DNA of 64,000 bases, from NCBI GenBank assembly GCA_015059865.1, contig SUZP01000001.1:34453-98452 (forward strand), read 5' to 3'. This DNA comes from Rikenellaceae bacterium (GTDB lineage Bacteria > Bacteroidota > Bacteroidia > Bacteroidales > Rikenellaceae). A model generated the notes under the pieces. It was not told the DNA's origin and did not search any database. It was given only the letters and a program-made list of their open reading frames with translations. The translations under genes and the position numbers were made by a program. Shown here piece after piece: positions 33,591 through 35,128 of the stretch (position 1 is the first letter of the stretch; each line of letters opens with the position of its first letter).

Positions 33591-34838
33591 CTACAAACCG
33601 AATTCGCTCTTTATAATCTCTACTGCATCTAAACGCTCCCAGCCGAAAAACTCCACTTCACGCTCTACCTCAACGCCATTCTCTACAAACTTAACGCTCT
33701 TGGTGTATGGGCGATTGCCGAAGTGTCCGTACGATGCCGTAGCCTCGAAGATTGGATTTTTCAAACCAAAACGCTTGACGATAGCGTGTGGGCGTAGGTC
33801 AAACAGTTTGCCAATACGCTCAGCAATCTCGCCCTCGCTAATCGAGAGTTTGTTTGTGCCGTATGTATCAACATAAACCGACAAAGGTTGAGCTATACCG
33901 ATAGCATAGCTAAGCTGCACGAGCACCTCGTCTGCCACGCCTGCTGCGACCATATTCTTTGCGATATGGCGTGCTGCGTATGCCGCCGAACGGTCTACCT
34001 TCGAAGAGTCCTTACCCGAAAAAGCACCTCCTCCGTGCGCACCACGACCACCGTATGTATCGACGATAATCTTGCGACCTGTCAAGCCTGTATCTCCGTG
34101 AGGACCACCAATAACGAACTTACCCGTAGGGTTTACATGGAGGATATAATCCTCGCCAATAAGGTTTGCGAGTTCATCATTTGCACGCTCCAAGCGAGCC
34201 TTCACACGCGGAATAAGGATTGTGCGAACATCCTCCTTAATTTGTGCTACATCGACCTCCTCATCGTGCTGCGTCGAGACGACGATAGTATGCACACGCT
34301 GCGCCTTGCGGTTGTCGTCATACTCGATTGTCACCTGACTCTTGGCATCTGGTCGCAGATAGGTCATAACCTCGCCCTCGCGACGAATAACAGCCAACTC
34401 CTTCAAGATAACATGCGAGAGAATCAGGGTTGCAGGCATCAACTCGCGCGACTCGTTCACAGCATAACCAAACATTATACCTTGGTCGCCAGCGCCTTGC
34501 TCCTCCTCGGTAGCTCGCACTACGCCCTGATTAATATCTGACGACTGCTCGTGAATAGCCGAGAGGATACCGCACGACTGCGCATCGAACTGCAACTCAC
34601 TACGGTTGTAGCCTATACGATCAATCACGCGGCGTGCCGTAGCCTGAATATCAACATAAGCATCCGAGCACACCTCGCCCGAAACCACCACCAAGCCTGT
34701 GGTGCAAAGAGTCTCGCACGCCACCTTCGCCTCGGCATCGCGGCGCAAAAACTCGTCGAGAATAGCATCTGAAATCTGGTCGGAAACCTTGTCAGGGTGT
34801 CCCTCCGAAACCGACTCTGATGTGAACAAAAATCCCAT
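33591..34838 (-). CDS. metK: S-adenosylmethionine synthetase
   Basis: 415 aa; [65 protein letters not shown]. Confidence 0.97.
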
Positions 34839-34885
34839 ATCTTATTTTAGTTAAAAGTTAAAAGTTAAAATTTCAAAGTTAAAAA

Positions 34886-34920
34886 TTAGACGAGAGACGA
34901 AAGACGAGAGACGAGAGAAA
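34886..34920. repeat. GACGAGAGACGAAAG repeat family, copy 3 (in metK leader)
   Basis: TTAGACGAGAGACGAAAGACGAGAGACGAGAGAAA, identical over its length to the copy at 20781. Confidence 0.85.
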
Positions 34921-35032
34921 AGCAAAACATCAAAACGATCTATCGTTTTACTTTTAATTGTCAATTATCAATTGTCAATTGTCAATTTAACAATGTTGGG
35001 ATTTGTTGAGCAGAAGTGCCTCAAAAAAAAGA

Positions 35033-35091
35033 GTTGCCGGTTTAGCAATTTTTTATTGTGGTTGCAATCAGTCCAAATCCCTCCACATTTG
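35033..35091 (-). ncRNA. Candidate SAM-II riboswitch upstream of metK
   Basis: Minus strand: AAATGTGGAGGGATTTGGACTGATTGCAACCACAATAAAAAATTGCTAAACCGGC. P1 TGTGG/CCACA, GATTT-N7-TTGCAA loop, ATAAA...GCTAAA 3' strand, matching the SAM-II aptamer layout recalled from the literature. Confidence 0.8.
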
Positions 35092-35097
35092 CGACCG

Positions 35098-35128
35098 CAA
35101 AGGTACAACAAAAAGTTAAAAGTGCAAA
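35098..35128 (-). promoter_or_regulatory. metK promoter (bacteroidete sigma type)
   Basis: Minus strand TTTG (35128-35125), exactly 19 nt, TACCTTTG (35105-35098); predicted TSS ~35091 just ahead of the aptamer. Confidence 0.8.

Follow-up and report, generated by a model that had tools for sequence, protein, structure and literature searches.

Riboswitches of the SAM-II class have been known from the Bacteroidetes since their discovery. Bacteroides thetaiotaomicron was already listed in the first SAM-II paper (Corbino 2005, PMC1273637), and a "SAM-II long loops" motif, Rfam family RF01726, was published for Bacteroidetes and marine samples (Weinberg 2010, PMC2864571). How riboswitches in this phylum control translation is an open question, given the absence of Shine-Dalgarno sequences. 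Bacteroidetes do without such sequences, and structure near the start codon tunes initiation (PMC6847099).

Here we describe an RF01726 locus in a 64-kb stretch of DNA from a Rikenellaceae bacterium (referred to below, at its full length of 64,000 nucleotides, as the window). The aptamer is an ordinary member of this published and already classified family, and SAM binding is predicted for it on the basis of its sequence; what is new here is a candidate expression platform. With a probability of roughly 0.7, we interpret the locus as a long-loop SAM-II riboswitch with its own Bacteroidetes-type promoter that would exert SAM feedback on metK by masking the start codon.

The metK leader carries a SAM-II long-loop aptamer

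When the window was searched with cmscan against Rfam 15, the sole match above threshold was to RF01726, on the minus strand at 35092 to 35032 (61.5 bits versus a gathering score of 44; E = 2.2e-9 for the 64-kb window). The model aligned over its full length (1 to 60), and the P1 stem and the invariant GAUUUG, UUGCAA, and GCUAAA segments were all present, with zero non-standard pairs in the cmscan alignment. A GibS small RNA match on the opposite strand (22.7 versus 115 bits) was taken to be a chance match over a terminator-like hairpin. The features of the promoter, aptamer, and gene are as follows.

35125 to 35128, minus strand: -33 promoter box TTTG (sequence; consensus in PMC7366714)
35098 to 35105, minus strand: -7 promoter box TACCTTTG (sequence; TANNTTTG in genus leaders)
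35032 to 35092, minus strand: SAM-II (RF01726) aptamer (cmscan score given above)
35083 to 35087, minus strand: P1 5' strand TGTGG, partner CCACA at 35061-35057 (cmscan structure line)
35069 to 35071, minus strand: pseudoknot (P2b) 5' strand CTG, partner CGG at 35039-35037 (covariation, 184 distinct aptamers)
35057 to 35061, minus strand: P1 3' strand CCACA (cmscan structure line)
35037 to 35039, minus strand: pseudoknot (P2b) 3' strand CGG (covariation, 184 distinct aptamers)
33591 to 34838, minus strand: metK, S-adenosylmethionine synthetase (TIGR01034, 514 bits)

Just upstream of the aptamer, TTTG-N19-TACCTTTG (TTTG at 35128-35125 and TACCTTTG at 35105-35098, minus strand) matches the Bacteroidetes promoter consensus (PMC7366714). 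Of 145 genus leaders, 143 have TANNTTTG at a similar distance upstream of the aptamer, compared with 4.6 expected after shuffling. Reading the minus strand onward, TGTGG (35087-35083) begins 10 nt after TACCTTTG and is followed by AGG, GATTTGGACTGATTGCAA, CCACA (35061-35057), and ATAAAAAATTGCTAAACCGG. The next gene downstream is metK (34838 to 33591, minus strand), which scored 514 bits with TIGR01034 against a cut-off of 309; the aptamer accordingly occupies the 5' UTR of a methionine/SAM gene, with its own promoter upstream, as members of RF01726 do. Farther upstream, a 12-bp inverted repeat, TAGAAGAGATTT...AAATCTCTTCTA, followed by TCTTTTAT (35257-35215), sits after a short lipoprotein-like gene (35496-35278, minus strand). 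This repeat is probably the terminator of the lipoprotein-like gene, separating that gene from the metK unit.

The same arrangement recurs among relatives. The aptamer was found in 163 of 180 genomes of the genus (68 of the 70 good ones) and in 83 of 118 genomes sampled across the order. From these we parsed 162 leaders in the genus plus a first order sample and 77 in the order set, with 16 common to both (~220 compared); metK follows the aptamer in every parsed leader, a few of the fetched loci being unparsable. One genome (G258) contains two RF01726 copies (L192 and L234), and for the L192 copy, an unparsed order locus, no metK was found downstream; it precedes another reading frame (MNTEKNIYTEVEKRI...). 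In a 1.3-Mb relative (L168 in G074), the aptamer GCTAAA directly abuts the metK ATG and leaves no room for an expression platform, such that direct occlusion is the only possible control mode there.

These results bear out part of the original prediction, which had proposed a SAM-II aptamer behind a textbook promoter with metK as its target; all of the motifs that it quoted were found on the minus strand where it had placed them. Its choice of family did not hold up. It had named RF00521 (SAM_alpha) and had proposed a covariance-model search of the minus strand with that family, which scored the aptamer at 26 bits, below the gathering score of 36. Membership in RF00521 was rejected on this score, and RF01726 is the correct family.

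The pseudoknot register had to be revised as well. The prediction had paired UUGG with CCGG, but pairing in this register (0.697) was hardly above that with shuffled partners (0.686; standard deviation [sd], 0.005), and we rejected it for this reason. The register that covaries among 184 distinct aptamers instead joins the trinucleotide before NTTGCAA with positions +2 to +4 after GCUAAA, where standard pairs make up 0.864 of the total versus 0.800 (sd, 0.006) with shuffled partners. Its pairs include CUG/CAG (80 aptamers), CUG/CGG (25, including that of the window), UUG/CAA (19), AUG/CAU, and GUG/CAC. The CUG/CGG pairing in the window joins the loop with the 3' strand, as P2 of RF01726 does.

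One leader element is complementary to both the aptamer and the metK start

Downstream of the aptamer, the leader contains an element, ACAAATCCCAACATTG (35006 to 34991), that is complementary to both the aptamer 5' strand (GGGAUUUG) and the metK start (AUGGGAUUU). The features involved are the following.

35074 to 35081, minus strand: aptamer segment GGGATTTG, complementary to CAAATCCC at 35005-34998 (sequence; swap z of -5.5 in 39 leaders and -9.4 in 73 leaders of other families)
34991 to 35006, minus strand: putative switching element ACAAATCCCAACATTG, the anti-aptamer/anti-start strand (duplex position; swap, sliding, and anchoring tests)
34866 to 34990, minus strand: AT-rich DNA of a dispersed repeat, separating the element from the start codon (54 places in its own genome; sister alignment)
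34830 to 34838, minus strand: metK start ATGGGATTT, containing GGGATTT at 34836-34830 (sequence; swap z of -8.1 at -10 to +10 of the ATG)

In the window, CAAATCCC (35005-34998) pairs with GGGATTTG of the aptamer (35081-35074), and AAATCCC (35004-34998) is complementary to GGGATTT of the metK start (34836-34830). When leaders were read side by side, equivalent complements appeared with other letters: CCCAUUUAUAUGU with ACGUAUAgAAUGGG in L002, CCAUACGU with ACGUAUGG in L041, and, in leaders from outside the family, CCCAUAG with CUAUGGG (L012) and AAUCAAAUCUCC with GGAGAGAUUUGAUU (L033). A small hairpin just 5' of the element is confined to the window's clade, with GAGGCA-CUU-CUGCUC in the window (35008-35023) and GGCAG-UU-CUGCC at the sister loci L131, L133, and L136.

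Across 161 leaders, the duplexes with the aptamer 5' strand and with the start beat dinucleotide shuffles (mean z of -1.85 and -1.80, respectively), and 88% of leaders showed an overlap of 4 nt or more between their two best duplexes, a figure that has no calibrated null. Since indels misalign the element between clades in a MAFFT alignment, we used swap tests in place of column-based covariation. Native partners outperformed species-swapped partners at every redundancy level, with z values of -4.7 to -5.8 for the aptamer strand and -5.9 to -11.1 for the start; the strictest level (21 representatives, ≤55% identical) gave -4.7 and -5.9. In a sliding control, the signal was limited to the aptamer 5' strand (z of -5.5, 39 leaders) and the start codon (z of -8.1), the absolute z being ≤2.5 elsewhere. 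Reversed-sequence controls gave z values of -0.9 and -3.1, the latter indicating that effects of relatedness or composition partly remain in the swap tests.

With the position of the element defined solely by its match to the aptamer, the complement of the start fell on the element's 3' end (z of -7.4) and not 3' of it. Outside the genus, the anti-aptamer pairing gave a swap z of -9.4 (73 leaders), whereas the start pairing was weaker (swap z of -5.6; mean shuffle z of -0.6). For the window alone, the shuffle tests gave P values of 0.34 and 0.08, which are weak given its long AT-rich leader.

Predicted accessibility of the metK start depends on the aptamer strand

In opening-energy calculations, withholding the aptamer strand served as a stand-in for the SAM-bound aptamer. 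Opening the start region (-8 to +8) in 35 representatives took a mean of 5.8 kcal/mol with the aptamer strand available and 9.5 kcal/mol with it withheld, compared with 5.5 and 6.2 kcal/mol in shuffled leaders (P = 9e-8, Wilcoxon test). The window itself shifted from 6.3 to 9.0 kcal/mol, and the element-start pairs in its equilibrium fold rose from 3.4 to 9.6. In this fold, the apo state did not make the three AUG bases clearly more accessible (mean unpaired, about 0.31 versus 0.38), and the helix that masks the start is still substantial in the apo folds of many relatives. Given this residual mask, the switch would need kinetics or help from the ribosome, and the model may need to include co-transcriptional kinetics. 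Taken together, the swap, sliding, and anchoring tests and the opening energies link the aptamer to the initiation region through mutually exclusive pairings, as is expected of a translational riboswitch.

Alternative outputs of the leader

Since proteobacterial SAM-II switches are mostly thought to act transcriptionally (PMC2258182, PMC6061858), SAM binding might instead promote a terminator between the aptamer and metK. The window and one large clade do have a U-rich tract after the aptamer, but this tract comes after only a 3-bp pseudoknot strand, and we rejected it as a functional tail because it is not conserved across the genus (e.g., L039, L040, L047, and L050). A search for intrinsic terminators between the aptamer and metK found none in the window leader and a terminator-like site in 1 of 146 genus leaders, the other 145 having none; a leader terminator was rejected on these counts, and we regard termination as improbable here. 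In one other family of the order, a hairpin and U-tract can be seen by eye in the leaders L205 and L020, and the hairpin of L205 begins with the anti-aptamer strand. By inspection, the same switching strand may have been recoupled to transcription termination in that family.

It is also conceivable, though unlikely, that only the competition between aptamer and anti-aptamer is real and that the output lies in RNase access, Rho, or mRNA stability, with the start complement a by-product. The stronger anti-aptamer signal and weaker start signal across the order fit this reading; within the genus, however, the start signal is strong and confined to the start codon, and both of its sides change in step (CCCAUU/AAUGGG and CCAUACGU/ACGUAUGG). 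We consider it very improbable that the switch has been broken in this particular genome, leaving the aptamer without an output, although the distance from GCTAAA to the ATG is 202 nt in the window versus usually 61 to 76 nt in relatives. This distance is long because repeats have inserted: the additional 125 nt that separate the element from the start (34990-34866) consist of dispersed repeat DNA that has 54 matches in the same genome. The aptamer, element, and start complement are nevertheless all intact, sister species in which the insert is present, shorter, or absent have kept the same element (L031, L126, L131, and L133), and the shift in opening energy persists in the window. The inserted DNA contains TTGACAATTGACAATTGATAATTGACAATTAAAAG... 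and CTCTCGTCTCTCGTC..., and several of its parts occur separately in the genome.

Discussion

The identity of the aptamer, its gene context, its conservation, and the complementarity of one element to two mutually exclusive partners can all be read from the sequences compared; the start-codon-masking platform built on them is a plausible and statistically supported candidate. According to this model, SAM binding would fold the aptamer and lock away its 5' strand (the 5' side of P1 together with the GAUUUG triplex strand). Thus released, the downstream element would pair with the region around the metK start codon, such that initiation would be blocked (OFF) and MetK synthesis would fall. Without SAM, the element would pair with the aptamer 5' strand and leave the start codon open (ON). 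Masking of the start codon itself would suit a phylum in which Shine-Dalgarno sequences are not used. The original prediction had noticed neither this platform nor the 202-nt gap left by the inserted repeats.

We lean slightly toward a broader reading, a three-strand switch whose single short element complements the start codon as well as the 5' (triplex) strand of the aptamer, the beginning of the coding sequence thus mimicking that strand (GGGAUUUG/AUGGGAUUU). Such a switch would provide widespread Shine-Dalgarno-independent control of translation in the order, and its anti-aptamer strand would have been recoupled to terminators in some families. In the main texts searched, two of which mention RF01726, we found no description of a start-masking expression platform for RF01726. 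If the model is true, a conserved, covarying start-codon mask under a SAM-II aptamer would offer a testable answer to how Bacteroidetes riboswitches control translation and would supply gut-commensal genetics with a ready-made part.

Among described systems, the window aptamer is closest to RF01726 (Weinberg 2010, PMC2864571), with which it shares sequence, P1, pseudoknot, the invariant GATTTG, TTGCAA, and GCTAAA, and occurrence in Bacteroidetes; it differs from that family by one extra loop base and nothing else. It has the same fold and core as SAM_alpha/SAM-II RF00521 (Corbino 2005, PMC1273637), a paper that mentions the Bacteroides group, although many RF00521 members have terminators after P2 and the window aptamer does not. 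The SAM-V riboswitch (PMC6061858), whose model was not among the Rfam matches that cmscan returned on the window aptamer, likewise combines a pseudoknot aptamer with translational control, which is proposed here, but carries the Shine-Dalgarno sequence within the 3' strand of its aptamer. The SAM-II switch of Sinorhizobium meliloti metA (PMC9373788) follows a translational OFF logic over a distance, as we propose from sequence for metK. In metA, however, the pseudoknot masks the Shine-Dalgarno sequence, whereas here a separate downstream strand would mask the start codon.
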